38,199 bases of DNA, taken from contig DATLZR010000073.1 in NCBI GenBank assembly GCA_035573895.1, forward strand, positions 66,028-104,226, in the 5' to 3' direction. The stretch comes from Blastocatellia bacterium (GTDB lineage Bacteria > Acidobacteriota > Blastocatellia > HR10). Numbering within the stretch: the first letter of the stretch is position 1; every line of letters starts with the position of its first letter. The translations under genes were made by a program, and so were the position numbers. Shown in pieces: positions 7,954 through 31,092 of the stretch. The notes under the pieces are model-generated. The model saw only the letters and a program-made list of their open reading frames with translations. It was not told the origin of the DNA and ran no database searches.

Positions 7954-8715
7954 ATGGCTGTGCATCGTTTTTATGTCTCTCCCGAATCCATTCACGGAAC
8001 AGATCTGGTCCTCGGTCAGGAGGAATCCCACCATCTTCGTCGCGTGCTTCGGCTGAGAGAAGGCGACCGCGTGGTAGCCTTCGACGGCACGGGACGAGAA
8101 TACCTCTGCCGGGTTGAGCGCGTGGTGGATGATCGCGTCCTTCTTCGCATTCTCAAAGAAGACGCGCCACCCGTTGAATCGCCCCTCCTCATTCGTCTCG
8201 CGCAGGCTGTCATTAAAGGCGAGAAGTTCGACTTGGTCGTTCAGAAGGCGACAGAATTGGGGGCGACGGAGATCGTCCCTCTTATCACAGACCATTGTGA
8301 TCCCTGGGTCCACCGATGGGAGCGATCTGACAAACTGCTCCGATGGCGGCGAATTGCCATCGAAGCCTGCAAACAGTGCGGTCGAACTCGCATCCCTCCG
8401 GTGAGCGATCCCATTCCCGTCGCCGAGTTTTTGATCCGCCGCCCGGGCGTTACCGTTATGGCGGTGGAACGCGGCGGGAAACCATTGACCAGCCTGGAGG
8501 AAGCTTTTCGCTACGATCCTCCTCGCGAAGTCAACATTCTCATCGGGCCGGAGGGAGGATGGTCATCGCGGGAACGCGAACTGGCCGAGGAAGTCGGGGC
8601 GCGACAGGTGACACTCGGCCCACGCATTCTTCGGACGGAAACCGCCGGAATCGTTCTCACCGGCATTGTTCAGTATCTGTGGGGCGATCTTGCAAAACGG
8701 GGGGCTGCCGCGTGA
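7954..8715 (+). CDS. rsmE: 16S rRNA (uracil-1498-N3)-methyltransferase RsmE
   Basis: This 253-residue SPOUT-family enzyme methylates N3 of U1498 in helix 44 of 16S rRNA in the 30S subunit. Visible features are the N-terminal PUA-like part ([24 protein letters not shown]), the central [20 protein letters not shown] signature, [15 protein letters not shown], and the C-terminal trefoil-knot SAM site [14 protein letters not shown] followed by [12 protein letters not shown]. Length is normal for the family. It starts 5 nt after trkA, and its TGA overlaps the GTG of the next gene, so the three genes are probably cotranscribed. Confidence 0.96.
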
Positions 8716-13472: not shown

Positions 13473-13897
13473 AGAATTCCGGGAATTTCCGGGGAGGCGA
13501 GGAGTCGTGGGGAGCGGTCAGTTTCAGGGATGAGTACGGGGGTGATCCGAACCAGATAAGGCCAATGTGCCAACCCACCTCCGACGCGCTTCCGCCGGGC
13601 GTGTGCCGATGCCCCACTGTGATCACCTCAGAAGCCTCCCTTGAAAATCATCTCCCCAGGGATGAAAGGTTCCCACGGATCACTCATCCGTTGGCACTTT
13701 TCATCCGTTGGCAAACCCATTTTCATTCTTCGTGGCGTGCGATAGCGCATGAGCGATTCCCTTGAAAATCTCCTGGAACCGCGTGCCTCCCGCGTGCTCG
13801 GTGGAACTAATGGCCACGGCTGCTGGCTGGATGCGCCCCCAGGTTTTCATATTTGCGGCATGCGATAGCGCATGGGAGATTTCTCCGAAAATAGTCC
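13473..13897. repeat. copy B of the intergenic repeat plus a partial third unit
   Basis: The 660-bp gap after the toxin gene contains no credible gene. Copy B (13473-13752) repeats the blocks of copy A: GAGCGGTCAG at 13512, ACCTCCGACGCGCTTCC in the middle, and the 69-bp core at 13672-13740. It then continues into a hairpin-forming TGCGATAGCGCATG (13738-13751). That hairpin and its neighbour recur at 13858-13897 (CATGCGATAGCGCATG, stem CATGCG/CGCATG with loop ATAG, then GAGATTTCTCCGAAAAT). A further fragment is at about 13968-13988. A short TCCCTTGAAAATC motif also occurs twice (about 13637 and 13754). The minus-strand frame at 13701-14039 merely translates these repeats. Confidence 0.6.
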
Positions 13898-14004: not shown

Positions 14005-15036
14005 TCAGTCCGACGAAGACCGATAGGACGAGGATCCACCTACCACGTGCGAAAATATCCGCGCATGCTCAGCGGCTGAGCGGCTCCAACTGAACGCCTG
14101 GGCGCGCCTAAACCCCTGCTCCCGCAACTGCTGCCGCAGGGAATCCTCTGTGATCAACCGTCGCATCGCTTCAGCGATCTCATCCACCGAATACGGGTCC
14201 ACCAGCAGTCCCGCTTCCCCCACGACTTCGGCGCAACCCGTGCGGTTGGACGTGACCACCGGACATCCACAGGCCATCGCTTCCACGAGCGTGAGACCGA
14301 ACGTTTCCCGCAGCGAAGGCGCGACGAGTCCCAATGCCCCTCGATACCACGCGGCAAGCTCGGTCTGGGGAAGAAGCCGTCGGATGACCTTCACTCCCCG
14401 AATTCGAAACATCGCTAGCATGCGCCAATCCCAGGGCGAGAGCACGATGAGATCGGGGCGAGAGGATTCCGGCAGCCGGGCATACGCTGCGAGAACTCGC
14501 TCGGTGTTTTTCATCGGGTTTCCCCCGAAGATATGAACCAGATACGGGCGCTCGCGCACGAGGACGTCTCCGTCCGGCCTGAACAGCGCGTGGTCAACGC
14601 CGTGCGGGACGACATGAACTCTCTCAAGTGGGACATCGAAAACTTCCGAAGCTTCCTGCGCGGCGAATCGCGAAGGTGCGATCACTGCCGTTACGATCTC
14701 TCGAAACCACCTTCGATCTCGCAGGATTCGAGCCTTCAGCCAGGGGTGATAAATGCGGGCGACCACCCATTCTGCCTTCGGGACATAAGCAGACGAGAAG
14801 ATACGCGCTCCGTGGAACGTCACAATGACGGGAACACGGCTTTCCCGTAAGATCGGGGGAATCGGGCGCATTCCCAGGCCGGGATCCCAGACCAGGTCGC
14901 AATCGGGAGGAATCCGCCCCCTCCTGCGCATCGGGATTACGTGAATTCCCGAAGCCACAAGGATCCTCGCCAGGTTTTCCCGATACACCCGATGACTGGG
15001 AGCGTCCACCGAACGCATCAGCATGCCCAGGCGCAT
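14005..15036 (-). CDS. glycosyltransferase family 4 (last gene of the glycolipid-like operon)
   Basis: This 343-residue GT-B-fold retaining glycosyltransferase transfers a sugar from an NDP-sugar in the cytoplasm. It has the N-terminal MRLGMLMRSVDAPSHRVY stretch, a VIVTFHGARIFSS acceptor-domain strand, the SRFAAQEASEVFDVP and VVPHGVDHALFRP linker, IFGGNPMKNTERVL, and the C-terminal donor motif SLRETFGLTLVEAMACGCPV with the paired glutamates. The open frame extends 115 codons upstream, but that part lies inside the sulfotransferase gene and is not protein-like. The ATG at 15036 overlaps the upstream stop as ATGA and starts the domain properly. The gene ends next to the repeat-rich gap. Confidence 0.9.
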   Translation of the reverse strand: MRLGMLMRSVDAPSHRVYRENLARILVASGIHVIPMRRRGRIPPDCDLVWDPGLGMRPIPPILRESRVPVIVTFHGARIFSSAYVPKAEWVVARIYHPWLKARILRDRRWFREIVTAVIAPSRFAAQEASEVFDVPLERVHVVPHGVDHALFRPDGDVLVRERPYLVHIFGGNPMKNTERVLAAYARLPESSRPDLIVLSPWDWRMLAMFRIRGVKVIRRLLPQTELAAWYRGALGLVAPSLRETFGLTLVEAMACGCPVVTSNRTGCAEVVGEAGLLVDPYSVDEIAEAMRRLITEDSLRQQLREQGFRRAQAFSWSRSAAEHARIFSHVVGGSSSYRSSSD

Positions 15037-15881
15037 CACTGGCCAACCTCGGCAAGGAGTTGTTCTACACTCTCCCGCGAGTAAAAATCCCAAAACGCTC
15101 CATCGCTCTTGAGCAACCGCTCTCCCAGAGCGCGCATGAGCGAGGCGTCGTAGAGCGAACTCGCGTTTCTGCTCCGCAAGGAGACGGTCAACTCGGCAGC
15201 CTCCGGAACGATCACGCTGAGCGCGCGCCCACCAGTGGCGATGATGTCTTCGTAGCGAAGGATCACCGTCTCCGGAAGCACGCGCCGATAGGTCTCGAAG
15301 AACCAGTCGAGAAGATAGAGCTGCCTCTCCCACCGATCCCCGATCCGGGAGAGTGTCCTCCGGAGAGACGGATAGAGCCATTCGCCCACGGGTACACGCC
15401 CCTTATTCAGCGACAGGGAGACGGAATTCCACGAGGCGAGCACGGCCAGGGGATTGCGAACGACGGCGTAAACGGAGAAGTGATGTATTAATTCGCTCAG
15501 GAGCACTGTGAAAGGACCCGGATGCTTCACGATGAGCCAGAAGCGCATGGAGAGGCGTTTCGCAACGTGAACCTTTCCGTATCGAGCCACATGGCGACGC
15601 AATGGCCCGACGCGCTGCTCCTCCACCGGATTCGCGGGGATCTCTCCATCAATGTGGAGGGATGGGACCGGGCGCCCTGCAGCGAGGCGCTCGCGGACCT
15701 TAATGAAGAATCGCCGAAGGCCCGAACGCGCTAATCTTCGGTCCCAGCGACCGAGCCAAAATCGCACGCCCATTGGTGGTTCAACCAACGCGACGACATC
15801 GGGGAGCTGGTTGAGTAACCAGCAGGCAAGCGTCGTCCCTGATCGAGGAATGCCCGTGAGGACGATATCACGCTCAGACAT
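15036..15881 (-). CDS. PAPS-dependent sulfotransferase (first of two)
   Basis: This 281-residue sulfotransferase-fold protein would move sulfate from PAPS to a hydroxyl or amino group of a glycan or lipid. The 5'-phosphosulfate loop is GIPRSGTT (10-17) near the N-terminus. The 3'-phosphate segment is YAVVRNPLAVLASW (138-151), where Arg and Ser contact the 3'-phosphate. The start at 15881 is preferred because GGAAGG lies 5 nt upstream and the P-loop sits at the usual distance. An ATG six codons earlier (15899) lacks a ribosome-binding site. It overlaps the upstream GT2 gene by 8 nt and the downstream GT4 by ATGA. The nearby second sulfotransferase is not a close copy. Confidence 0.87.
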   Translation of the reverse strand: MSERDIVLTGIPRSGTTLACWLLNQLPDVVALVEPPMGVRFWLGRWDRRLARSGLRRFFIKVRERLAAGRPVPSLHIDGEIPANPVEEQRVGPLRRHVARYGKVHVAKRLSMRFWLIVKHPGPFTVLLSELIHHFSVYAVVRNPLAVLASWNSVSLSLNKGRVPVGEWLYPSLRRTLSRIGDRWERQLYLLDWFFETYRRVLPETVILRYEDIIATGGRALSVIVPEAAELTVSLRSRNASSLYDASLMRALGERLLKSDGAFWDFYSRESVEQLLAEVGQ

Positions 15882-16791
15882 GGTGCCCTTCCATTCCATC
15901 GGTCAGAAAGGGCTTCAGATACGCTGTGACGGTATGACGATCAAGGAAGAACTGCAAAAAGCCCTCCAGGCTCTGTCGAGCGATGGCGGAGAGGGGGAGA
16001 TCGTGTTTCTTTGCCAGACGCATGCCGTTGGCGAATGCTGCCCGTAGCGTCTTCACGAGATTTTGCCGAAAGGACATACCACCCCCCTGCGGTCCCCCAT
16101 GTTCGACGAACGTCGAAGCATCCACGAGCAGTTGGAATCCGGCCTTCCGCGCCCGGAGACAGTAATCGTCATCTTCGTAGAGTCCGTGCGCGAAGGACTC
16201 GTCCAAATACCCGATCTCTCGAATGAGATCGCCCGAGATGGCGAGACAGAACCCGATGAGCCGGGTGACAGGAATCACGCGTCGTCCGACGCGCCGTCTC
16301 AACTCGCGGGCGAACGCCTCGATGCGCTCCAGTTCCGCGGGCGAGAAATCCTTCAGACGCGGGAAGAGGCGCGTGTTTTGATACCCGCATACCCAGTTGG
16401 TTACCGGGCCGACCAGCCCGGCCCCACTCTCGTGGCGCAAAACGTCCAGCAACCCGTCCAGCGACCCCCGCGGGAGATAGACGTCGTCGTTCAGAAGGAT
16501 CACATGGTGCCCATCGGCTCGGCGCATCCCGCGATTGTAGCTTCCTCCGAAGCCACGGTTATGATCGTTCTGCAAGAACTGGAAATCCCCAAAGACGCGT
16601 CGAAATTCCGCCTCATATTTCCCCACCAGCATGAGGGTTTCCTTCCGAAGGGGAGATGCATCATCAAGTAAGATGAGCTGCTTATCCGCCGAACCGTTCC
16701 GCACAAGACTCGGAAAAAAGAGCCGGTCTATGACCTCCAGCACGGCAGGGCCGGCATTATACATAGATGTCACAATTGTGACTGCAGACAT
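15874..16791 (-). CDS. glycosyltransferase family 2
   Basis: This 305-residue GT-A-fold inverting glycosyltransferase starts VTIVTSMYNAGPAVLEVIDR and shows the nucleotide-binding LILLDDAS, the FLQNDHNRGFGGSYNRGM motif, and the metal-binding ILLNDDVYL. GYLDESFAHGLYEDDDYCLR, with the ED acid/base region, follows. This resembles rhamnosyl- or glucosyltransferases of cell-surface glycans. No membrane segment is evident, so it acts in the cytoplasm or at the inner leaflet. It is spaced 8 nt from the upstream sulfotransferase and overlaps the downstream one, so cotranscription is likely. Confidence 0.9.
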   Translation of the reverse strand: MSAVTIVTSMYNAGPAVLEVIDRLFFPSLVRNGSADKQLILLDDASPLRKETLMLVGKYEAEFRRVFGDFQFLQNDHNRGFGGSYNRGMRRADGHHVILLNDDVYLPRGSLDGLLDVLRHESGAGLVGPVTNWVCGYQNTRLFPRLKDFSPAELERIEAFARELRRRVGRRVIPVTRLIGFCLAISGDLIREIGYLDESFAHGLYEDDDYCLRARKAGFQLLVDASTFVEHGGPQGGGMSFRQNLVKTLRAAFANGMRLAKKHDLPLSAIARQSLEGFLQFFLDRHTVTAYLKPFLTDGMEGHHV

Positions 16792-16799
16792 TTCGTTCG

Positions 16800-17633
16800 T
16801 CAGACTACGTATCCTAGCCGCCGGAGCGTTGGCTCCAGGATCTGCAGCACTTCACGTTGTAGCTCTTCGCTGAGATTTTCGCGCCAGCGCCCTACACGCT
16901 GTCGGTGATTACGGCGGAACCAAACCGACTGGTATTTCGCCTGATAGGAGCCCTCGGTTGAATTTTGAATATTGCAGCAGAACTCCGTAACGGCAGGATG
17001 AAGGGGCAGACCGAGATAGTCGAAAATCTGTCGCGCCACGTCGTGGGGCCGGGCGACCAAGTCCTCATAACGGACCTGAAGATGGGGAACACCGGCGAGA
17101 TCAGCCAGACCCGTGCGAACAATTTCATTCCAGGCGTGGGCGCAGCGGATAACTCCCTGGTATCGAGCGAAAATATCACGCCACTGTGGGGGCCGCTCAT
17201 GAGCCCACCATCGCCCACCAAGCCCTGGAACGAGCGAACAGGCAACATCTCGCCCATCCCTCACAATGTGAATGATTTTAGCCTCCGGGAAGACAGCCCG
17301 CAGGAAGGGAATCCGGAGAATGTTGCGGGGATTCTTCTCGACAATGATTCGAGCGTCCCCCTTACGCCAGCGAAACCACCACCGAATGAACGAGCGAACC
17401 ATTGGCGTCGCCTGATCCGCCGTAAACCGATCCGACCCATTCACTCCCCGACCAACAATCCGCCAGGGGACATAAGACTCAAAAATATATTTCACCTCCG
17501 GGTGAGCAGCCACCAACTCGCCCAGGATGCTCGTCCCTGATCGGGCAACTCCAACGATAAAAGCTATGTTGAGCGAATCGCGTCCACAATCGGCGACAAG
17601 CCCTGGCTGCTTTCGATTCTCTGCCACCATCAT
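16800..17633 (-). CDS. PAPS-dependent sulfotransferase (second of two)
   Basis: This 277-residue sulfotransferase has the 5'-PSB loop VGVARSGTS (27-35) and the 3'-PB segment IIHIVRDGRDVACS (120-133). YEDLVARPHDVARQIFDYLG is a conserved late motif. The C-terminal WFRRNHRQRVGRWRENLSEE matches the RxGxWxxxL pattern that closes the PAPS site. This is the better conserved of the two sulfotransferases, resembling the Sulfotransfer_3 family of glycan and lipid modifiers. The ATG abuts the stop of the upstream methyltransferase. A second ATG one codon later is equally possible. Two sulfotransferases in one operon suggest two sulfation positions or substrates. Confidence 0.9.
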   Translation of the reverse strand: MMVAENRKQPGLVADCGRDSLNIAFIVGVARSGTSILGELVAAHPEVKYIFESYVPWRIVGRGVNGSDRFTADQATPMVRSFIRWWFRWRKGDARIIVEKNPRNILRIPFLRAVFPEAKIIHIVRDGRDVACSLVPGLGGRWWAHERPPQWRDIFARYQGVIRCAHAWNEIVRTGLADLAGVPHLQVRYEDLVARPHDVARQIFDYLGLPLHPAVTEFCCNIQNSTEGSYQAKYQSVWFRRNHRQRVGRWRENLSEELQREVLQILEPTLRRLGYVV

Positions 17634-18308
17634 CTATTTATTCCTCGCTCGATCTACAATGATTGGTTCCTCGACGGGAAGAACGCCTCCCTCTCCTCGC
17701 ACATTATCAGCACGTTCCCTCCCATCGCTCTTTCGGGCAATGATCCGCAGCTCGTTGTAGACGATGACTTCCCCCAGAGCTTTCCAGGGAATGGGGTAGT
17801 ACCGGTGCTTGAGGACCGAACAATCTAACCGGCGCAACATGTCGCGGAGGGATGGATAGGTCAGATAGGTCTTATGTGTTCGATCAATAAGGTATCCCGT
17901 TGCCGTTGGGACTCTGATGTAGAGGATGCCACCACTTTTCAGAACACGCACCGCCTCACCGAGCGTCACACTGGGATCCTCCAGATGCTCCAGAATATGC
18001 GAGAGTAGGACTCCATCGAATGAAGCATTTAGGAAGGGGAGCAAAGACGCATCTCCCCTGATAACCTTGAATCCTTGCTCCCGGCAGTACCGTGCGCAGT
18101 GAGGATTGACATCAAGACCAAGCGCATGGGCATAGACGCTCAAGAAGTGTCCAATGCCGCAGCCGATGTCAAGCACCCGGCCTCGAAAAACTCGCGCCAA
18201 GGGGCGAAAGAACCACCGGCGTCCCAATCTAATGCAGAACTCCGGCAAGAACGACGCCCGCAGATACTCGAAGTATTCTTTGCTGGCTACCTCCGTGGTG
18301 CGCCGCAT
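17634..18308 (-). CDS. class I SAM-dependent methyltransferase
   Basis: This 224-residue Methyltransf_11-type enzyme is expected to methylate a small molecule, sugar or lipid head group. Motif I is VLDIGCGIGHFL (45-56); the acidic post-I residue is in ALGLDVNPHC; motif II is FDGVLLSHILEHLEDP; and the strand after it is VLKSGGILYIRVPT. Its place between a GT2 and a sulfotransferase argues for tailoring of the glycan or lipid made by this operon. The ATG start has only a distant purine stretch (AGGGGG about 13 nt upstream) and lies next to a small palindrome (GGTGA-AA-TCACC), so its start or translation control is slightly uncertain. Confidence 0.88.
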   Translation of the reverse strand: MRRTTEVASKEYFEYLRASFLPEFCIRLGRRWFFRPLARVFRGRVLDIGCGIGHFLSVYAHALGLDVNPHCARYCREQGFKVIRGDASLLPFLNASFDGVLLSHILEHLEDPSVTLGEAVRVLKSGGILYIRVPTATGYLIDRTHKTYLTYPSLRDMLRRLDCSVLKHRYYPIPWKALGEVIVYNELRIIARKSDGRERADNVRGEGGVLPVEEPIIVDRARNK

Positions 18309-18364
18309 GAGGTGATTTCACCCCCTGAACGGGAATTCCCGCATAGAAGAAGATAGCTTCTGAA

Positions 18365-19693
18365 TCATCCCTGCCTCTCGTGCTGTGCAATCTGGCCCGG
18401 CTCTGCCATACCTTGCAGAAAGACCGGACGGCCCTTCCAAATCACGTCCCGCTGCTTGTAACGCCTCCACACCGACGATAGGGCAATAGCGATGAAGACA
18501 GCGAAACCGACAAACGAAGCCAGATGGTAAATCCCCGGTTGACGATCCTCCTCAGCCAGTATTGCTCCCACGGCGACCATTGCCAGATAGCCCAGGGCAG
18601 CAGAACCAATGACCGCAGCCATATCTCTGTCGGTTGGGATCATCCCGAGGAACGTCGCAATAAGGACCCCCACGGGAAGAAGCGTCAGGATGGCAGCCGT
18701 CGCCACGCTCGCCATGAGCACGAGCGGATTTCGACCGACAGCCGGACAGATCACTCGGCTGTAGGCTTCCCATAGTTCGGAAAAGGCCACCCGCGCGGGT
18801 GTATGAATTAAATGCGTCCCCTCAACTGCGAAGACGCGAAATCCTTGCTGGTGTAATCGGATGCCTAAAATCGTTTCATCCATCACCTCTGAGCGAATAG
18901 CAGCATAGCCACCGATAGCATCGAGCGCACGGCGTCGCACGAGTGTAAAGGCCCCGATGGTGAAGGCTTGATCACCTACATAGGCGCTGAGGAAAAAGAG
19001 TGGATTGAAGGAAATTCCCTGCTTCTTGTGGTCTGCGTGCGCGGCAGGCGCGTGAGTCGCCCCCCCTTCGCAAGCCCACCGTAATCGGGCTTTGACGGAT
19101 CCAATGAGCATGCCCAGCCGAAGCAAGTTCAGGGCTTGCGGTTCAATGACGTGATCCCAGAAACTGACATAATCCATCCGGGGCAAAAGCGATAGAGCAT
19201 CGCAGCGATACTTCCTTGCCAGTGCGAGCGCTTTCCGCACCGTCTCCGGATCGAGAAGAATATCGGCGTCAATGGAGAGGATCCACTCGCCTCGGGCATG
19301 AGCTAACGCTTGCTGAAGCGCGAAGGGCTTCCCTCGCCATCCGGGGGGCGGTTCTTCCCCATCAATGACGCGCAACCGGGAGTCCGATTCGGCCACCTCT
19401 CTCAAGATTTCCAGCGTCCGGTCGGTCGAACGATCGTTGACGACGATGACCTCGATGGCCGGGTAATTCTGTGCCAGCATCGAAGCGAGAGACTGCCTCA
19501 GGATGCGATGTTCCTCGTTGCGCGCGGGAACGAGGATTGAGACAAGGGGCGCATCCTCGGGCTCTTCCATCGGATCAGCATCCGTCGGGCGGGGAGCATG
19601 GCGAAAACGACGCAAAGCCAGAACCACCATGAGGAGGAGAGTCCAGGTTACCGCTGCGCTCCAGAGAGCTAAGACCAGTACGGTTTGCATCAT
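18365..19693 (-). CDS. membrane-bound glycosyltransferase family 2 (HpnB/CrtQ-like)
   Basis: This 442-residue enzyme has an N-terminal transmembrane anchor (about 5-26), a GT-A domain starting PLVSILVPARNEE, then VIVVNDRSTD, a DGEEPPPGWRGKPFALQQAL stretch, and ILSIDADILLDP with its DxD. A later MDETILG and QQGFRV correspond to the catalytic base and QxxRW-like motifs. Two to four transmembrane helices occupy about residues 320-415. The layout and the PPGWRGKPFAL stretch resemble HpnB and carotenoid/diaponeurosporenoate glycosyltransferases, i.e. sugar transfer to a lipid. The open frame extends to 19846, but AAGGAAGAGG lies directly before the paired ATGs at 19693 and 19690 and the extension would overlap the upstream gene, so 19693 is preferred. 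Confidence 0.88.
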   Translation of the reverse strand: MMQTVLVLALWSAAVTWTLLLMVVLALRRFRHAPRPTDADPMEEPEDAPLVSILVPARNEEHRILRQSLASMLAQNYPAIEVIVVNDRSTDRTLEILREVAESDSRLRVIDGEEPPPGWRGKPFALQQALAHARGEWILSIDADILLDPETVRKALALARKYRCDALSLLPRMDYVSFWDHVIEPQALNLLRLGMLIGSVKARLRWACEGGATHAPAAHADHKKQGISFNPLFFLSAYVGDQAFTIGAFTLVRRRALDAIGGYAAIRSEVMDETILGIRLHQQGFRVFAVEGTHLIHTPARVAFSELWEAYSRVICPAVGRNPLVLMASVATAAILTLLPVGVLIATFLGMIPTDRDMAAVIGSAALGYLAMVAVGAILAEEDRQPGIYHLASFVGFAVFIAIALSSVWRRYKQRDVIWKGRPVFLQGMAEPGQIAQHERQG

Positions 19694-19748
19694 CCTCTTC
19701 CTTTCATCAACCTCGATGGCTTCATTCTCGTTAACGCCCTGAAAACCC

Positions 19749-21041
19749 TCACCCGCCGACCAGGCGGACTCCGACTCGCGCCAACTCCTCTGACCCGACT
19801 CCAAGAAATGATTCAATCGCATCGGCAGCGGACCGAACGGGATCATAGCGGGCGTGACTATCCCGCAACACCTTCATGCAACTGGTATAGTGATCCCGGT
19901 TGTCGAGAATGTGCTTCACCGATTGCATGACAAGAGTCGGCTCGGCGAGGACCTCGTGCAAGCTGAGGAGGATTCCCGCTCCGGCGGCTTCAATTTGTTG
20001 CCCGAGCAGCTCCTGCTCGAAATGCGTAGCGATGGCGATAACCGGCCTACCTGCCGAAATGGCCTGGTAGACGCTCCCGGCCCCGCCGTGGCAGATTACG
20101 ACATCGGCCCGCTGCATGACGGCTCCTCCCGGCAGAAACCGCGCGACCCGAATATTCGTGGGCAGGTCTTTTTCCTCGATGCTCACCTGCCCGCCCGTCG
20201 TCAAAATGACATTGAAAGCGCGATCCGCAAAGAGTGCGATCAATAACGGGAACAAAGCCGGATGTCCTGTACTTCCCATCGTGACGTAAACGAGAGGACG
20301 ATCCGATGCGACGTCCTCGAACCACTCCGGAAGTGGCCCGGACGGCGACCAGTAAAGTGGTCCGACGCGCACGAAGTGAGCAGGAAGCTCGTTCAACGGA
20401 GCGAGACGCTCGCTATCAAGAACGAGGTTAAGCTCCCCCTCAAGGAGGTCCCACAGATGCGTCTTGACTGGCAACCCGAGCTGCTTCATCAGCGTGCGAT
20501 AAGGAGCCATCTTATACCAGAGCACCACTTTCAGGAGCTGAGGGACCAGCCAATCCGTACCGGCGCGTCCCACCAATCGTTTGATCAGCCGGTAATGAGG
20601 ATACGTGCGAAACGCTCGGTAAGGATAAGCCGCACGCGATGGGAGCCAGCGACCTCCTAAGAGTGAAATTCGCGGAACTCCCCGAATCATCGCCGACAGA
20701 TACATGGTGAGGCGAAAGTCAATGATCACAGCATCGGGTGCTATCTGGTCAATGAGGTCGAGTTCCGCCTGAATGTGCTCCTGGAGGAGGCGATGCCCTG
20801 GGCGACGGTGAAGAGTTCGCAAGAGGGTTAGTCCTTCCGATGCCTCGAAGTCCGGCAACGGACGGTAATGGAAGGAATCAGCAGTTACCTGTGGGTCCTG
20901 CAAATAGCGCGGACTCCCGGCGAGGATGATCTCGTGGCCTCGCTGCGCTAACTCGGTGGCAAGCAGCACACACCGGCCGGCATGGGCCAGGATGTTGGAA
21001 GCCGGAGTGACGAGAATCCGTTTCTTTAACCTGACGGCCAT
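19749..21041 (-). CDS. GT1-family (MGT/CrtX-like) glycosyltransferase
   Basis: This 430-residue GT-B enzyme is of the UDP-glycosyltransferase/macrolide type. It has an N-terminal acceptor domain (RILVTPASNILAHAGRCVLL, with the His typical of the catalytic base) and a C-terminal donor domain with PLVYVTMGSTG. VVICHGGAGSVYQAISAGRP and the following HFEQELLGQQIEAAGAG match the signature of this family. Acceptors of such enzymes are often lipophilic (carotenoids, polyketides, sterols, glycolipids), which suits a gene next to a ketosynthase. The ATG at 21041 has GAGAG about 8 nt upstream; a GTG three codons earlier (21050) is possible. Confidence 0.9.
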   Translation of the reverse strand: MAVRLKKRILVTPASNILAHAGRCVLLATELAQRGHEIILAGSPRYLQDPQVTADSFHYRPLPDFEASEGLTLLRTLHRRPGHRLLQEHIQAELDLIDQIAPDAVIIDFRLTMYLSAMIRGVPRISLLGGRWLPSRAAYPYRAFRTYPHYRLIKRLVGRAGTDWLVPQLLKVVLWYKMAPYRTLMKQLGLPVKTHLWDLLEGELNLVLDSERLAPLNELPAHFVRVGPLYWSPSGPLPEWFEDVASDRPLVYVTMGSTGHPALFPLLIALFADRAFNVILTTGGQVSIEEKDLPTNIRVARFLPGGAVMQRADVVICHGGAGSVYQAISAGRPVIAIATHFEQELLGQQIEAAGAGILLSLHEVLAEPTLVMQSVKHILDNRDHYTSCMKVLRDSHARYDPVRSAADAIESFLGVGSEELARVGVRLVGG

Positions 21042-21119
21042 GCCCGTCACTCTCTCACTTTAGTTGCGAACCGCACCGTCACTCTCCCTCAACTCGGGGG
21101 AAGCGGAAAGGTTGGCCCG

Positions 21120-24798: not shown

Positions 24799-25995
24799 TC
24801 AAACCGACAAAGACCGCAGGATCTCTTGCAGTTTTTCGGCAAACCGCGCACGGGAAAAATGGCGGCTGCGCTCATAGGCCGCGCGGCTGAGAGCAGCAGA
24901 TGTTTCATTCCGAGTGAGATGATGGGCTTGCTGGACTAACTCATCAACCGTCTCCCAAACATACCCACTCAGGCCGTGCTGCACGATCTCGCGAAGTCCC
25001 CCGCGATTCACGACGAGCGGAATCACACCATAAGCCATCGCTTCGGCCACTGCCATTCCGAAATGCTCCACCCGGTCGGGATGTTTCGATTCATCCACTC
25101 CGAAGCCGCTTGCGTGCCAGAGCATTTTCGCGGCCCGGTATAAACGAATGAGTTCAGCTCGTGGCGCGTTGATGTGAAACACGACGGGAAGATCCCGAGC
25201 ACTCTCCCTCAATTCGGCGATCATACGTGTCGTTTCCGGGTCACTCCCGGCCCCCCCGACAAGATGAAGTTCCCAATGACCCGGCGCGCGCTCACAAAAC
25301 CGTCGAAATGCATGAATCAGAACGGCGTGTCGTTTCTCGTGACCGCCGACGAAGAATCGTCCAACGCTCAGAATGAGATTGCTTTTCTCCTCCCATCGAG
25401 GGCCTGTCGCGGGAACATCAATCGGCGGGTGGAGAACAGCAGAGGGAATACCGGGGGACCAGTTTGCGTCCACGACCTGAGCCGTGAAATGCGAGTTATA
25501 GAGGATGAAATCGAACGAGCGAAGTGCCCGCCGAAAAATCACCTGACGCGCCAGTGCCCGCCGGGCTTCCCCGTACCGCCGTTCGGAAATCGCCAGCAGG
25601 AACTCACCGGGGGCCCATCGCCGATGTGGGATTTGAATGTGGAGAATGTTTCGTCGAGCCGAAAGAGCGAACGGCTGATCGGATTCGAGCATGAAGGCGA
25701 GGTCATAGCGCGACGTCACCTGCCGAATTTCCCGTCGCAGACGTTGGACACGGGCGCGATTCCTCAACCACTGGAACGGAGTTCCGGGTTCCACAACGGC
25801 ATTCCCCTGAATCTCGACGCGCCCCGCGCTCGACAAGCCAACGCCCAGGCGATCTCCCAGCAGGGAAAAATCAAAGGGGCGAGCGATGATGAGATCCACC
25901 TGATGATCCGCGCTGAGAATCTCCGCGATCGTGGCAAAGTACTTCTCCCCTCCCCCCATGACGTGCCAGCCGGGATTGTAAAGAGCGATCTTCAT
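24799..25995 (-). CDS. glycosyltransferase family 4 (ALG11/mannosyltransferase-like)
   Basis: This 398-residue GT-B enzyme starts MKIALYNPGWHVMGGGEKYF, a nucleotide-sugar retaining transferase N-terminus. LILSVGRFFVGGHEKRH opens the donor domain and EHFGMAVAEAMAYGVIPLV carries the paired-glutamate motif. The GGGEKY start and the GFGVDESKHPDRVEHFG segment resemble the ALG11-type alpha-mannosyltransferases of lipid-linked glycan assembly. It starts 48 nt after a radical SAM gene and is the last gene of the minus-strand run. It converges with the uracil-DNA glycosylase gene across 60 bp with no obvious terminator. Confidence 0.9.
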   Translation of the reverse strand: MKIALYNPGWHVMGGGEKYFATIAEILSADHQVDLIIARPFDFSLLGDRLGVGLSSAGRVEIQGNAVVEPGTPFQWLRNRARVQRLRREIRQVTSRYDLAFMLESDQPFALSARRNILHIQIPHRRWAPGEFLLAISERRYGEARRALARQVIFRRALRSFDFILYNSHFTAQVVDANWSPGIPSAVLHPPIDVPATGPRWEEKSNLILSVGRFFVGGHEKRHAVLIHAFRRFCERAPGHWELHLVGGAGSDPETTRMIAELRESARDLPVVFHINAPRAELIRLYRAAKMLWHASGFGVDESKHPDRVEHFGMAVAEAMAYGVIPLVVNRGGLREIVQHGLSGYVWETVDELVQQAHHLTRNETSAALSRAAYERSRHFSRARFAEKLQEILRSLSV

Positions 25996-26043
25996 TCCGA
26001 CGATGACGGGATAACCCGCGACGCTGTGAGCCCCTGGGACGCA

Positions 26044-27141
26044 TCACCGGCGCGTGAGATTAAAAAGCAGCGGCTTGGGACTCCGCCCGAGGCTCGGTAA
26101 CGCTTCGCACGGCGTCCAGCACTCGCACCGCCGGGCGGCGATCTGCTGACGAATCGCCTGCGCCTCGGAACTCAGCCAGATATCTTCAAATCGGCGTTCC
26201 CGTACGTTGCCCAGTTTCTTATTGAGCGTGATGCACGGATAGACGTTCCCGTAAGGATCGAGATAGAACGAGTGCGTTCCTGAATAACAGGTGAAAATCC
26301 GTCGGGGATGCGACTGGTAATCCACCATACGATGGAAATAGTAGGCGCGCACATCGGTCACCCTCTGACGGAGCGACATCCGAGCCATCATGTCGGCCGT
26401 GATCTGTTTGAGAGCGTGCTCGATCATCTGCAAATCCTCGCGCCTCCACCCCGTTGGAGAGTGTGTCATGGCATAGTAGGTCTCGCTGCTGTGCACAAAC
26501 TGGGCGCTGAATTCGATCCCCTTCTCCCGGGCGAAGCGATAAACACCGAGCAGGTCCCGCCAGTTATCGCGCGTGATGGTGAAGCTCACTCCCACCCGAA
26601 GCCCGTCCAGAGACAGTGCATCCTCGATCACGCGCATCGCTTTGTCGAAGACCCGGATGCCTCGCTGATGGTCGTGGGTCGCACCGATGCCATCGAGAGA
26701 GACTGACAGAAAGATACGTCCCTTTTCCGGACGATAGTCACGCATGATCCGCCGCAGCGTCTGAGCGTTCAATTCAGGATTGATCGAACCCGTCGGGATC
26801 GTGATCGTTGCCCGGGGAAACTGACCCAGGAAAAACCCGACGATCTCCGCGAAATCCCGACGAAGGAATACCTCTCCGCCCGTGAGCGAGACTGACCGAA
26901 GCCGACCGAACAGGGGAGAAGTGAAAACCCTTTCGATTTCCGCCAGGCTCAGTTCTGTTCGAGCTGCCGCTCCCCTGCCGCGATAAATCTCCCAGATGTC
27001 GCACATGCGGCAGCGTGAATTACAGAGGAAGGTGACGGCGAAATTGACATAATGGATGTCATAAGGGGTGGGCGCGAGAATCCTCTCCCGCAGGCGCTGA
27101 CTTACTCGCTCAAGCTGCGTCTTCCAGGTCGTCACGCTCAT
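26044..27141 (-). CDS. radical SAM protein with SPASM-type C-terminus
   Basis: This 365-residue iron-sulfur enzyme has the cluster-binding motif CNSRCRMC (Cys40, Cys44, Cys47) after VNFAVTFL, the SLTGGEVFLRRD glycine-rich SAM motif and the LSVSLDGIGATHDHQRG strand. A C-terminal SPASM-like region follows: CYSGTHSFYLDPYGNVYPC, FEDIWLS, then CECWTPCE. Such proteins modify peptides, sugars or other small substrates by radical chemistry. The neighbours are glycosyltransferases on both sides (GT39-like upstream, GT4 downstream), which favours a glycan or glycopeptide substrate. The only ribosome-binding-like purines (GGGAG) abut the ATG, so the start is slightly uncertain. Confidence 0.9.
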   Translation of the reverse strand: MSVTTWKTQLERVSQRLRERILAPTPYDIHYVNFAVTFLCNSRCRMCDIWEIYRGRGAAARTELSLAEIERVFTSPLFGRLRSVSLTGGEVFLRRDFAEIVGFFLGQFPRATITIPTGSINPELNAQTLRRIMRDYRPEKGRIFLSVSLDGIGATHDHQRGIRVFDKAMRVIEDALSLDGLRVGVSFTITRDNWRDLLGVYRFAREKGIEFSAQFVHSSETYYAMTHSPTGWRREDLQMIEHALKQITADMMARMSLRQRVTDVRAYYFHRMVDYQSHPRRIFTCYSGTHSFYLDPYGNVYPCITLNKKLGNVRERRFEDIWLSSEAQAIRQQIAARRCECWTPCEALPSLGRSPKPLLFNLTRR

Positions 27142-27186
27142 CTCCCGGCGAGGACCTTCCCCAGCACCTGAGCCGTTAGCACAGGG

Positions 27187-29148
27187 TCATTTTACCACAG
27201 GCGACGCCGAAAGCTTCTCCCAGACCTGAACCCGGTCACGGCGTAATCGAAGGTAGTTCGTGAAGGGGACCTCGATGACGACACGGGCGGGTCCGTCTGG
27301 CTTCCCGCCAAAATAGACGAAGTCCGGACGGGCCGCATAGACCCAGTAGCTCGGCTGGCCGACTCGTTCAATCGTTCGGTATCCCTGCTGATACAGCATC
27401 CAGGCATTGAACGTGTAGGTGAGATTGATCTGCTCAAGCGGTACGCCACGACGCAAAAGTTCCTCTCCCGCTCGAAACAGCGCCGCGTACCCGCTGATCA
27501 TCGTCTTAGTCGAAGCCACGGAAACAAGGGCGAGCACGAAGATTCCTCCAGCCGCCACCCACGGAGAGATTTTTTTGACCATTAGCGAGCGATAACTCGC
27601 CACCAGAGCGAATGGGAACACAATGAAGATGTAGCGATCAAATCGGCAAGAGATCAGAACGAACGTCCCCGCAAGGAGAAGCATCGTTGCGAGGCTCAGA
27701 GTGGCTTCCGGAGATGGCGTCGCTCCCTGTCGGTCACCGGTCTGGCCCAGGCGACCTCGAAGGGACCCGGCGAGGAGGCTGAGAATCACTCCCACGATGC
27801 CCATGCTGTAAAGAATCTGTTTCGCTCCCCCGGAGAATTCCCCTACGCGACTTCGCCAGTACTCGAGGCTCTGATTTGTCGGAATCTCAGACGAGTATCG
27901 CACATAGTAGGCGACCAGGGCACGATCCACAAGCTGCTCGATCGTTCGATCAAGGATGCCCGATGCCAGGATAAGGCTAACGACGACGATGCAGGCCGTC
28001 GCCGGAAATATCAGTCTGACTCGCCGCCGAAGCGTATCGCCCAGCCAGGGCCAGGATTCTCTTCCGATCAGTTCGACCAGAACTGCCGCACTCACAACGG
28101 AGCCCATCGTGAGACCGAGCGAGAGTGTCCTTCCTCCTTGAGGGAAAATTGGCGAATCGGTGAGATAGGGCATGAGCCGATGCGACGCGACATAGAGGAT
28201 GACAGCCGTCACGCCGAGGAGGACCGCAACGCCACGCCGCACAGTGAAATACCCACCAGCCGTTTCACCTTGCCTCCCCCCGGTGTTCCGGTATTTGACC
28301 CACGCGCGATACCGGTCAAGGCCCTCCCGGCTGAGCACAGCGAGCGAAAGCGGGAGGAAGAAAAGTCCACTATAGAAAACGGCCACGATGGGCACACGGT
28401 AGACATCCCGGGCGATGCGATAGGTTTTCAGCATCTCCAGTTGAGCGAAGCGAAACTGCGTGGGGATCCCGTGGTGCACCGTCAACCAGTAGTAGAAGGC
28501 GGCGAGGGTCGCTACAGGAGCCATCAGCAGAAGTGCTGCGATCCTTCCCGACCGCACCTTCCACACCCGAGCCAGGAGAAGGAGGGCAACCGCCAGCGGC
28601 AATATAATGGCGTACTGACGAACCAGTACGGCGCAGCTCGAGAACAGGCAGCCTAGCGCAAAGAAAAAGATCTCACGCGGGCGGTTGGTCTGGCTCAGCA
28701 CGAACGAGGCGAGCGCGAGGATCATCAACCCGTAAAAAGGAACGTCCGTGTAGAATGTAAAGCTCAGCGTGAAATAGATGGGGTTGAACCACAGCGTCAG
28801 CGTCACAAGAAGAGGAAGCCAGCGCGATACCCGGTCCTGGGGAGCATTCATCTCGGTGAGCTGCTCGCACAGCTTGTAGAACCCGATGAGCCCTCCGAGA
28901 CTGAGCGCGAGCGTTGAGAGGTGCAATGCGCCGAAAGAGAATCCAAAGGGAAGACAAAAGAGGTATCCCCAAACGACCTGGAAAATAATGCTGGCAGCCG
29001 ATTCGTCGGCGAGTCGAAGATGACCCGTCTCGTACAGGTGTTTGACGGAAAGCGCATAGGTCCAGTCATCGCCGACGGGATAGTTGTAGAGTGGATTCAC
29101 CAGAAGAATCGAACCAACAACGATGGCGACCAGAAGAGCAATTCTCAA
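27187..29148 (-). CDS. polytopic glycosyltransferase, GT39/ArnT-like
   Basis: This 653-residue inner-membrane protein has about ten or more hydrophobic helices, beginning with IALLVAIVVGSILLV. A first periplasmic loop carries YNYPVGDDWTYALSVKHLYE, whose acidic pair fits the catalytic acidic motif of GT-C enzymes that use polyprenyl-phosphate sugars. The C-terminal 120 residues form a soluble domain. Such enzymes transfer a sugar to lipids or proteins on the outer face of the membrane. The open frame runs to 29265, but the TTG at 29148 overlaps the upstream TGA as TTGA and starts directly at the first helix; the longer version would lie within the radical SAM gene. The start assignment is moderate. 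Confidence 0.83.
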   Translation of the reverse strand: MRIALLVAIVVGSILLVNPLYNYPVGDDWTYALSVKHLYETGHLRLADESAASIIFQVVWGYLFCLPFGFSFGALHLSTLALSLGGLIGFYKLCEQLTEMNAPQDRVSRWLPLLVTLTLWFNPIYFTLSFTFYTDVPFYGLMILALASFVLSQTNRPREIFFFALGCLFSSCAVLVRQYAIILPLAVALLLLARVWKVRSGRIAALLLMAPVATLAAFYYWLTVHHGIPTQFRFAQLEMLKTYRIARDVYRVPIVAVFYSGLFFLPLSLAVLSREGLDRYRAWVKYRNTGGRQGETAGGYFTVRRGVAVLLGVTAVILYVASHRLMPYLTDSPIFPQGGRTLSLGLTMGSVVSAAVLVELIGRESWPWLGDTLRRRVRLIFPATACIVVVSLILASGILDRTIEQLVDRALVAYYVRYSSEIPTNQSLEYWRSRVGEFSGGAKQILYSMGIVGVILSLLAGSLRGRLGQTGDRQGATPSPEATLSLATMLLLAGTFVLISCRFDRYIFIVFPFALVASYRSLMVKKISPWVAAGGIFVLALVSVASTKTMISGYAALFRAGEELLRRGVPLEQINLTYTFNAWMLYQQGYRTIERVGQPSYWVYAARPDFVYFGGKPDGPARVVIEVPFTNYLRLRRDRVQVWEKLSASPVVK

Positions 29149-30161
29149 AAGGCAGGCTTCCCTTCGGAGGTGGAATCGGGCCGACGCGATCGAAATCGCG
29201 CCACGAGGAAGTTCCACACGCGCTCCTGGTTGAGCTGGGCGTGGGTGTGCTGGCAGGCGGCGCATAATGGCAAGCGCGAGAAGTCCAGAGCGCGATGCCG
29301 CTCTCTGACAACCGCCAACGGCTCACCCCGCCAAATCTCTTCCAGCGTTTGCTCGCCAAAGCGACCGACAACCATCTGACCGTCCACATCAAAACAACAC
29401 GGAACAACCGTCCCGTCCCACAAAACGGTGAGGGCGTCCCACAGGAACGCCGTGCAGGGGACGCGAAAGTCTATACCACGTGTGGGGAATCCGCGGTCTT
29501 TGGTTTTCCCCGCCCAGGTATTGAAGCTTTTGACGTGAATGTAATCGCCCGGTTCAAGGAAGGGGTGCCACTGACGCTTGAAGGCTTCGATTTCTTCCCG
29601 CGTTTCTTGCATGGCGATGATCTGGAAGACGGCGCGCGGGCCGCGCCCGTTGGCCGTGCGCCGCGCCTCAAGGAACGCCCGCACATTGTCCATCACCTGG
29701 TGAAACCGCGCCCCCCGTCGAATTGCTTCATAGGTCTCCGGCCTCACGCCGTCGAGGCTGAAAACGACCGTGTCCAGAGCAGAGTGAGCCAATCGAACGA
29801 CCTTCTCACCCCGCAGGAGCGTGGCGTTAGTGCTGATGACGACACTCCGAATGGCCGAGAACTGTTTGATGTAAGCGATCCGATCAAACAACCACTTATC
29901 CACGAGCGGCTCCCCCCAGGCATGAAGCCACACGATGTCGGCACCATGGCTGCCGATCTCATCGGCGAGCCGGCGGAACATCTCCATGGTCATCGTGCCC
30001 TCGGCGCGGGCTTTCGATTGCGTGGGACACATGATGCAGTCGAGATTGCAGATGCTGGTCGTCTCGATGTTAATGCGCCGAGGAAACGGCAACAACTCGG
30101 CCAGTTCGCGCCGGTGCCACCAGAGGAAGAATCGCGAGAGAGCACGTCCCGGAAAATTCAC
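29145..30161 (-). CDS. radical SAM/SPASM domain protein
   Basis: This 338-residue enzyme has CNLDCIMC (Cys38, Cys42, Cys45), a HAWGEPLVDKWLFDR SAM motif, VVISTNATLL and TVVFSLDGVRPETYEAIRRG. A SPASM-like C-terminal segment follows: CTAFLWDALTVLWDGTVVPC, CFDVDGQ, then FGEQTLEEIWRGE and LPLCAACQ. This layout matches PqqE/MoaA-like and sugar-modifying radical SAM proteins. The GTG start has GAGGGGG about 6 nt upstream and overlaps the stop of the small upstream ORF as GTGA. It overlaps the GT39-like gene by TTGA. It differs from the radical SAM protein at 26044, so the two probably do different steps. Confidence 0.91.
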   Translation of the reverse strand: MNFPGRALSRFFLWWHRRELAELLPFPRRINIETTSICNLDCIMCPTQSKARAEGTMTMEMFRRLADEIGSHGADIVWLHAWGEPLVDKWLFDRIAYIKQFSAIRSVVISTNATLLRGEKVVRLAHSALDTVVFSLDGVRPETYEAIRRGARFHQVMDNVRAFLEARRTANGRGPRAVFQIIAMQETREEIEAFKRQWHPFLEPGDYIHVKSFNTWAGKTKDRGFPTRGIDFRVPCTAFLWDALTVLWDGTVVPCCFDVDGQMVVGRFGEQTLEEIWRGEPLAVVRERHRALDFSRLPLCAACQHTHAQLNQERVWNFLVARFRSRRPDSTSEGKPAF

Positions 30162-30424
30162 ACCGTTCCCCCTCGTTGTCTCAGATAGGGCCGAGGGCCT
30201 GCGATCACCGTCGTACGGCTACCGTTGCCCTGCTCGATCGGTCCTCGTATTTCAGCTCCAGCACGGTAACAAACGTCCCGCAGCCTGTCAAGCTCGCCTT
30301 CTCCCACGATGGACCGAGATTCCTCCCACCAGAAGCTCATCAACGACACCATCGCCACGAAAGGTCGCCGAGGGCCCATCGTCCGGAACGTTCCTCGATT
30401 TGGGGTGAGCGTCATCGGCGGCAT
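30158..30424 (-). CDS. small hypothetical protein, 88 residues, translationally coupled on both sides
   Basis: I do not recognise this product. It is called because its ends fit an operon exactly: the ATG overlaps the ThpR stop (ATGA at 30421-30424 region) and its TGA overlaps the GTG of the radical SAM gene. The sequence is basic, with one Trp pair (MSFWWEESRS), a single Cys and a C-terminal RPYLRQRGGTV. There is no signal peptide, membrane helix or clear domain. There is no ribosome-binding site, so translation would depend on coupling. It could be a real small protein, a peptide substrate for the radical SAM enzyme (speculative), or chance. Without it, this 260-bp stretch would be non-coding. 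Confidence 0.4.
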   Translation of the reverse strand: MPPMTLTPNRGTFRTMGPRRPFVAMVSLMSFWWEESRSIVGEGELDRLRDVCYRAGAEIRGPIEQGNGSRTTVIAGPRPYLRQRGGTV

Positions 30425-30993
30425 CAGGATGAACCAAGAGGGATAATTTGAAGAGGGGTGTAAATGGCGCCACTCGGCCGGAGGTCGCTTCGCATGAGCG
30501 TGATTCGGTCGGCCCGGAACGGCCCGGTCGAAAAATGAAGGGCGAGGAACTTTCGCGCCAGCTCGCGTGCGCCCGTCGCCGCCCGAATACGGCCAATGGT
30601 GAGATGCGCCTGGAAAGGGCGGCCCTCTCGCGCGAAGCCCAGTCCCGCCATCGCTTCCTCGATTGCTCCGGCCAGACGCGGGAGATGTCCCCCCTCCTCA
30701 GTAACCCCAATCCAGAGAACCCGGGGAGCGCGCTCGCTGGGGAAAACGCCACAACCTCGGGCGACAAGTTCAAAGGGACCGAACCGACCGGCCACATCCG
30801 TAAGGACACGGCGGACGTCGGCGAGCCGCGACTCCTCCACATCGCCAAGAAACTTAAGGGTGAGATGGATATTCTCCGCTTTTGTCCAGCTCACAGAGAC
30901 CGGCTCGTTCGTGAATTGCGCCTGAAACCGACCGATTTCCGTCTTCACTTCGTCAGGTAGCTCTATGCAGATGAAGGAGCGAATTTTTGCCAT
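30424..30993 (-). CDS. thpR: RNA 2',3'-cyclic phosphodiesterase
   Basis: This 189-residue 2H-phosphoesterase of the LigT/ThpR group hydrolyses 2',3'-cyclic phosphate ends of RNA. The two HxTx motifs are HLTLKFLG (His43) and HLTIGRIR (His130), separated by about 85 residues as usual. The N-terminus IRSFICIELPDEVK is typical. The ATG at 30993 is preferred over the longer frame (31032) because GGGGAGGGG lies 4-5 nt upstream and the first beta strand starts there. It lies about 100 nt downstream of a GT4 gene and overlaps a small ORF at its end. Its place in this glycosyltransferase/radical SAM run seems unrelated to function. Confidence 0.93.
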   Translation of the reverse strand: MAKIRSFICIELPDEVKTEIGRFQAQFTNEPVSVSWTKAENIHLTLKFLGDVEESRLADVRRVLTDVAGRFGPFELVARGCGVFPSERAPRVLWIGVTEEGGHLPRLAGAIEEAMAGLGFAREGRPFQAHLTIGRIRAATGARELARKFLALHFSTGPFRADRITLMRSDLRPSGAIYTPLQIIPLGSS

Positions 30994-31092
30994 GATCCCC
31001 TCCCCTCGAGCAGTTTGACACACACGACTCAACTTGCTCGCGCATGCCAGATCATGCTTCCCTGCGTGTCATCCCTGGAGAGTCCCCCCGGC

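Follow-up and report, generated by a model that had tools for sequence, protein, structure and literature searches.

Four genes lie one after another on the minus strand of the window, by which we mean the whole 38,199-nucleotide stretch of Blastocatellia bacterium DNA that was analysed. Read 5' to 3' from 30161 to 24799, they encode a radical SAM protein (rSAM-A), a putative membrane transferase of the GT-C class, a second radical SAM protein (rSAM-B) and a GT4 glycosyltransferase, and are referred to below as the four-gene block (Table 1). An earlier note on this DNA had described this order with a TTGA overlap and gaps of 45-48 bp, and the ORF coordinates bear it out: 45 bp separate GT-C from rSAM-B (27142-27186) and 48 bp separate rSAM-B from GT4 (25996-26043). 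GT-C starts at a TTG (29148) that runs into the TGA stop codon of rSAM-A, so that the two genes share 4 bp. An alternative start is offered by the upstream ATG at 29265, the first in the ORF (27187-29265; 692 aa), but the TTG is preferred because the junction TTTTGA is conserved in 4/4 orthologous loci, in which the surrounding sequences differ. Through this overlap, translation of rSAM-A and GT-C may be coupled.

Table 1. Features of the four-gene block and of its upstream neighbour (positions in the window)
Feature	Position	Strand	Remarks
RNA 2',3'-cyclic phosphodiesterase (ThpR/LigT), conserved upstream neighbour outside the block	30424..31032	-	
rSAM-A, BtrN-like radical SAM protein, predicted twitch form	29145..30161	-	338 aa, GTG start
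rSAM-A CX3CX2C motif, predicted catalytic cluster	30027..30050	-	C38, C42, C45
rSAM-A predicted auxiliary-cluster region	29253..29456	-	C236, C255, C300, C303
TTGA overlap, rSAM-A stop / GT-C start	29145..29148	-	kept in 4/4 loci
GT-C membrane transferase, PMT_2-like by homology	27187..29148	-	653 aa from TTG
rSAM-B, second radical SAM protein, other subfamily than rSAM-A	26044..27141	-	365 aa
GT4 glycosyltransferase, last gene of the block	24799..25995	-	398 aa

The 3.9 Mb source genome contains 26 radical SAM matches; with about 3,500 genes assumed, the chance that a random gene is flanked by a radical SAM gene on each side is about 5e-5, and in view of this estimate and of the conserved arrangement described below, the arrangement is not a product of chance. 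Judged from the sequence, the four genes form one real, operon-like unit. No polyprenyl-phosphate-sugar synthase or flippase is found among the genes of the block and its conserved LigT neighbour, and none of the four genes of the block encodes a nucleotide-sugar enzyme. Elsewhere in the window (14005-21050, minus strand) there is a second glycan cluster, with a GT4 gene, two sulfotransferase genes, two GT2 genes, a methyltransferase gene and an EryCIII-like glycosyltransferase gene; it is not next to the four-gene block in the related genomes fetched.

Conservation and probable loss of the block

Orthologues were sought in 58 genomes, the source genome included. Three relatives (G001, G002 and G003), which belong to another genus of the same family, carry a GT-C orthologue (49-52% identity), and these are exactly the three genomes with orthologues of rSAM-A (74-75%) and rSAM-B (65-66%); GT4 orthologues (52-53%) occupy the same position in all three. 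The earlier note had named rare co-occurrence of the two radical SAM genes with the transferase gene in relatives as the observation that would speak against it. This outcome did not occur, as in this search the same three relatives carried all three genes. In a fourth relative (G046) the GT-C match is weak (2.6e-4). Weaker radical SAM matches at E <= 0.001 are found in 54/58 and 58/58 genomes, the best-scoring outside the family being 31% identical for rSAM-B (G009) and 39% identical for rSAM-A (G006). The three orthologous loci (L073, L074 and L075) have the same order and strand, namely LigT, rSAM-A, GT-C, rSAM-B and GT4, and their more distant neighbours differ from those of the window. 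The unit is limited to four genomes of one family. Values of dN/dS (NG86) range from 0.07 to 0.28 over all pairs and all four genes, of which the within-genus values (0.07-0.26) are the reliable ones, since dS reaches saturation in comparisons across the two genera. Purifying selection acts on all four genes.

Two further genomes of the same genus as G001-G003, G004 and G005 (87% and 73% complete, respectively), retain LigT along with the genes upstream of it, and LigT is adjoined there by the gene that in G001 comes after GT4. DNA matches to G001 break off at position 8297 or 8315 of L073 and restart at 13636, such that about 5.3 kb, corresponding to the four genes, are absent in both. In G005, about 100 bp are left that can be aligned, with gaps, to the rSAM-A 5' end and whose translation gives a broken rSAM-A N-terminus; in G004 a remnant of about 36 bp is kept. 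The rSAM-A stub in G005 and the precision of the absence therefore suggest that the block was most likely lost from G004 and G005, in one or several steps, rather than gained in the other genomes. LigT (TIGR02258, 143 bits against a cut-off of 65.7) was considered as a member of the unit and rejected, as it remains where the block has been lost and is present in 6/6 genomes tested. The earlier suggestion that the four genes serve one pathway is well supported by their order, the overlap and the block-wise loss.

The radical SAM proteins and the transferases

Both radical SAM proteins match the Pfam models Radical_SAM and SPASM above the cut-offs (1.6e-19 and 7.4e-15 for rSAM-A; 5.9e-10 and 4.4e-11 for rSAM-B), and the earlier label 'SPASM' is correct to that extent. 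The full SPASM domain, with two auxiliary clusters, is marked by at least seven cysteines in its C-terminal part, CX2CX5CX3C among them; this set is found in neither protein, each having five. Those of rSAM-A are residues 236, 255, 256, 300 and 303, to which the three orthologues add C290, and four of them (C236, C255, C300 and C303) are invariant in an alignment of 11 rSAM-A proteins, as is the CX3CX2C motif (11/11). By its cysteines, the 'SPASM' domain of rSAM-A is a shortened (twitch) form, equipped for one auxiliary cluster. In rSAM-B, the core cysteines C40, C44 and C47 and the C-terminal C285, C303, C339, C341 and C345 are kept in the four orthologues, C345 not being kept in a distant relative (L090), and its SPASM domain is probably also of the twitch form with one auxiliary cluster. 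A predicted structure of rSAM-B (pLDDT 67.5) has SkfB, BlsE, PqqE, SuiB and MoaA as its nearest folds, with TM-scores of about 0.5, and is consistent with, although not decisive for, a twitch/SPASM protein.

Among solved proteins, an rSAM-A profile matches BtrN best (9e-27). The match falls into two segments, and the C-terminal auxiliary-cluster domain is covered by the second; the four auxiliary cysteines of rSAM-A align there with those of BtrN (residues 169, 187, 232 and 235). BlsE, Tes, DesII and MoaA follow, and SpeY (7wzv) is matched at 2e-7. The substrates of BtrN, BlsE, DesII and SpeY are sugars, cyclitols or sugar nucleosides. BtrN, the twitch dehydrogenase of butirosin biosynthesis, is described as oxidizing 2-deoxy-scyllo-inosamine, with an auxiliary cluster that is held by four cysteines and presumably accepts the second electron (PMC9012708). 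By sequence, rSAM-A is closest to a radical dehydrogenase of alcohols that has a single auxiliary cluster. The central part of rSAM-A, in which substrate binding is expected, does not align with BtrN, and the genomic setting of rSAM-A is a glycosyltransferase block. The match holds at the level of the family and not of the substrate. Of the epimerization, dehydration or methylation of sugars proposed in the earlier note, kinship with BtrN favours none directly but rather dehydrogenation, or else epimerization via a ketone, for rSAM-A; methylation of the B12 type is less likely, because the Pfam scan detects a B12-binding domain in neither rSAM-A nor rSAM-B.

Relatives of rSAM-A are often found in glycan loci. 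In a survey of near relatives (14 loci on named contigs, several of them short, covering 10 of 13 listed large membrane ORFs), they lie near PMT_2 proteins in L083, L085, L087 and L097, of which L085 and L097 represent near-identical lineages, and flippases (MurJ or Wzx-like) are nearby in L083, L087 and L089. L083 (778-20274; unclassified bacterium) contains eight radical SAM ORFs, five of them B12-type, together with MurJ, GT2-like and PMT_2 genes. A Caldilineales contig (L090, 498-11435) has seven consecutive radical SAM genes, with relatives of both rSAM-A and rSAM-B. In three genomes of the order (L079, L080 and L082), a gene for a radical SAM/SPASM protein of 580 aa is found close to a relative of rSAM-B (about 30% identity).

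In six other families we observed a separate cassette in which two rSAM-A relatives (SPa and SPb) alternate with two B12-binding radical SAM genes (B12a and B12b). All four genes are present in seven of the nine chosen loci (L193/G145, L194/G192, L196/G298, L197/G275, L198/G065, L199/G206 and L200/G213; L192 and L195 complete the nine), and their products are 52-84% identical between loci. A GT-C-like gene of the PMT_2 type comes after the fourth gene in 6/7 loci whose sequence continues beyond it (L193-L196, L198 and L199, but not L200); L197, whose sequence ends at the fourth gene, is outside this count. These counts are descriptive and not a test, as the loci were picked for their rSAM-A relatives and the profiles were partly made from the same loci. 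Genes for SAM synthetase, adenosylhomocysteinase and a rhomboid protein lie upstream in L193 and L194. The idea that the four-gene block is a shortened form of this SPa-B12a-SPb-B12b-GT-C cassette was rejected: the GT-C of the window scores only 28.5 bits against the profile of that GT-C and lies closer to GT-C proteins that lack rSAM-A and rSAM-B as neighbours, and in the tree rSAM-A is sister to neither SPa nor SPb. On these sequence comparisons the two are different systems.

The GT-C protein has ten or more predicted hydrophobic segments. It gave no match to a transferase model, PF13231 and PF02366 included, up to E 10, and the earlier designation 'GT39-like' holds only via its homologues: in an alignment of 16 homologues from the phylum, the window protein included, 15 match PMT_2 (PF13231; best 5e-12, threshold 0.1), the exception being the window protein itself, and 3/16 match PMT. 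Because 15 of the 16 aligned members match PMT_2, the window protein is best regarded as a diverged PMT_2-like protein, and its GT-C membership holds by homology. Like PMT_2/GT39-like enzymes it is polytopic, with an invariant aspartate in the N-terminal region and an invariant D-R in an FDRY-like motif (D27 and D504-R505, respectively; L80, P123, R177 and P266 are also invariant in the 16 homologues); it differs from them in its own want of a model match and in that its TTG start codon lies within the stop of a radical SAM gene. A profile search of the PDB yielded no GT-C hit. A structure predicted from a two-row alignment (pLDDT 36) was discarded before any fold search, and an eight-row alignment of membrane proteins was too poor for folding. 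The family profile finds a match in 31/396 genomes of the phylum. L222 (2333-18173; G304) is of note for eight tandem PMT_2-like GT-C genes, the last cut by the contig end. GT-C enzymes use lipid-linked donors, and from its class the window protein may be expected to use a polyprenyl-linked sugar. The GT4 gene product matches Glycos_transf_1 (1.2e-21).

Proposed function of the block

We hypothesize, with moderate confidence, that the block serves to build or attach an unusual surface sugar, as part of a glycan or glycolipid. In our working model, rSAM-A would remove a hydrogen atom from a hydroxyl-bearing carbon of a sugar, and its auxiliary iron-sulfur cluster would receive the second electron, giving a keto sugar; rSAM-B would be responsible for another radical step, on that intermediate or the one after it. 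GT4 would form a glycosidic bond in the cytosol, and the PMT_2-type GT-C would act outside the cytoplasmic membrane, transferring the completed sugar from its polyprenyl-phosphate carrier. Neither the enzyme that loads the carrier nor a flippase is in the block, and both would act from elsewhere. The sugar substrate, the keto product, the polyprenyl carrier and the order of steps are all inferred.

Three-component glycosylation systems (GtrA/GtrB/Gtr, GT136 pentofuranose transfer, DprE1/E2 with a GT-C) likewise couple a GT-C with sugar-changing enzymes, and mycobacterial DprE1/E2 are known to epimerize a lipid-linked sugar (PMC11127046). The block differs from these extracytoplasmic systems in having no synthase or flippase of its own and in that its redox chemistry would be radical; a radical version of lipid-linked sugar epimerization would be new. 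It is tempting to speculate that rSAM-A and rSAM-B jointly epimerize or deoxygenate a sugar on a polyprenyl-phosphate carrier, as a radical counterpart of DprE1/DprE2 coupled in translation to the GT-C that uses the product outside the membrane, but so specific a version we regard as rather unlikely. The earlier note held that the pairing is not a standard cassette; no report of radical SAM and GT-C genes paired as in the block was found in the open-access literature searched, but radical SAM genes in glycan loci do have a precedent. A plasmid-borne glycan block of Brachyspira hyodysenteriae, with radical SAM, glycosyltransferase, epimerase and rfbC genes, is suspected of a role in LOS or glycosylation (PMC4267127). 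Several radical SAM genes adjoin glycosyltransferases there too, although the passages describing that block name no GT-C gene, and the likeness drawn here is one of gene content.

One alternative explanation is a RiPP-type pathway, in which the radical SAM proteins, or one of them, act as maturases of a ribosomal peptide that the transferases glycosylate. SkfB, a peptide enzyme, is nearest to rSAM-B among solved proteins by sequence (1.1e-11) as well as by fold, and many characterized SPASM enzymes act on peptides. The conserved block, however, has no room for a precursor gene, since gaps are short and rSAM-A overlaps or abuts LigT in the other genus; the 263-bp gap upstream of rSAM-A is found in the window alone. 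No RiPP model reaches its cut-off, and rSAM-A prefers BtrN in the profile search. A precursor gene may be located elsewhere in the genome, and overall we consider this explanation unlikely.

It is similarly improbable that the glycan genes and the radical SAM genes, two of each, were joined once and have been inherited together with no common pathway. Restriction to four genomes of one family would fit such a history, as would the isolation of rSAM-A, which in a 71-row tree forms with its three orthologues a separate group (100/100) without close kin. The GT-C enzyme, moreover, does not generally need rSAM-A/B, because 13 loci (L212-L224) fetched around some of the stronger GT-C homologues outside the family contain no match to either; B12-type radical SAM genes lie some kilobases from the homologue in L216, L218 and L219, and a GT-C paralogue in the source genome (L076) has no radical SAM neighbour within the 10 kb examined. 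Yet between the two genera the outer neighbours differ while the block is intact, its overlap conserved, and purifying selection on all four genes and absence of the whole block from two species also argue against mere co-inheritance.

A role in membrane lipid modification of the Tes or Gms kind, in which the transferases would add a sugar head group, is distinctly unlikely: the rSAM-A profile does match Tes (7tol, 1.9e-12), but in the core domain only, whereas the better match to BtrN includes the C-terminal domain, and Gms is described as having two auxiliary clusters (PMC11186832) against the cysteines for one in rSAM-A. Maturation of a cofactor or metalloenzyme (of the NirJ, AhbC/D or tungsten-cofactor type) in an accidental glycan neighbourhood is highly improbable, as the top NCBIfam scores that suggest it (NirJ1 for rSAM-B, 68 bits; tungsten cofactor maturase for rSAM-A, 111 bits) are far under the cut-offs (650 and 380 bits, respectively) and the block has two glycosyltransferase-type genes and no oxidoreductase or haem gene.

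As a candidate system for an unusual surface sugar, the block is a compact and testable unit that joins radical SAM chemistry to a membrane sugar transferase, and the species that lack precisely this block within one genus can serve as natural negative controls. Should the sugar prove to be altered while on its lipid carrier, this would be a radical route for a step known in mycobacteria from DprE1/E2, and two orphan radical SAM families would gain a substrate. One of these families has relatives in about half of the genomes sampled from the phylum (185 of 396, E <= 1e-25).
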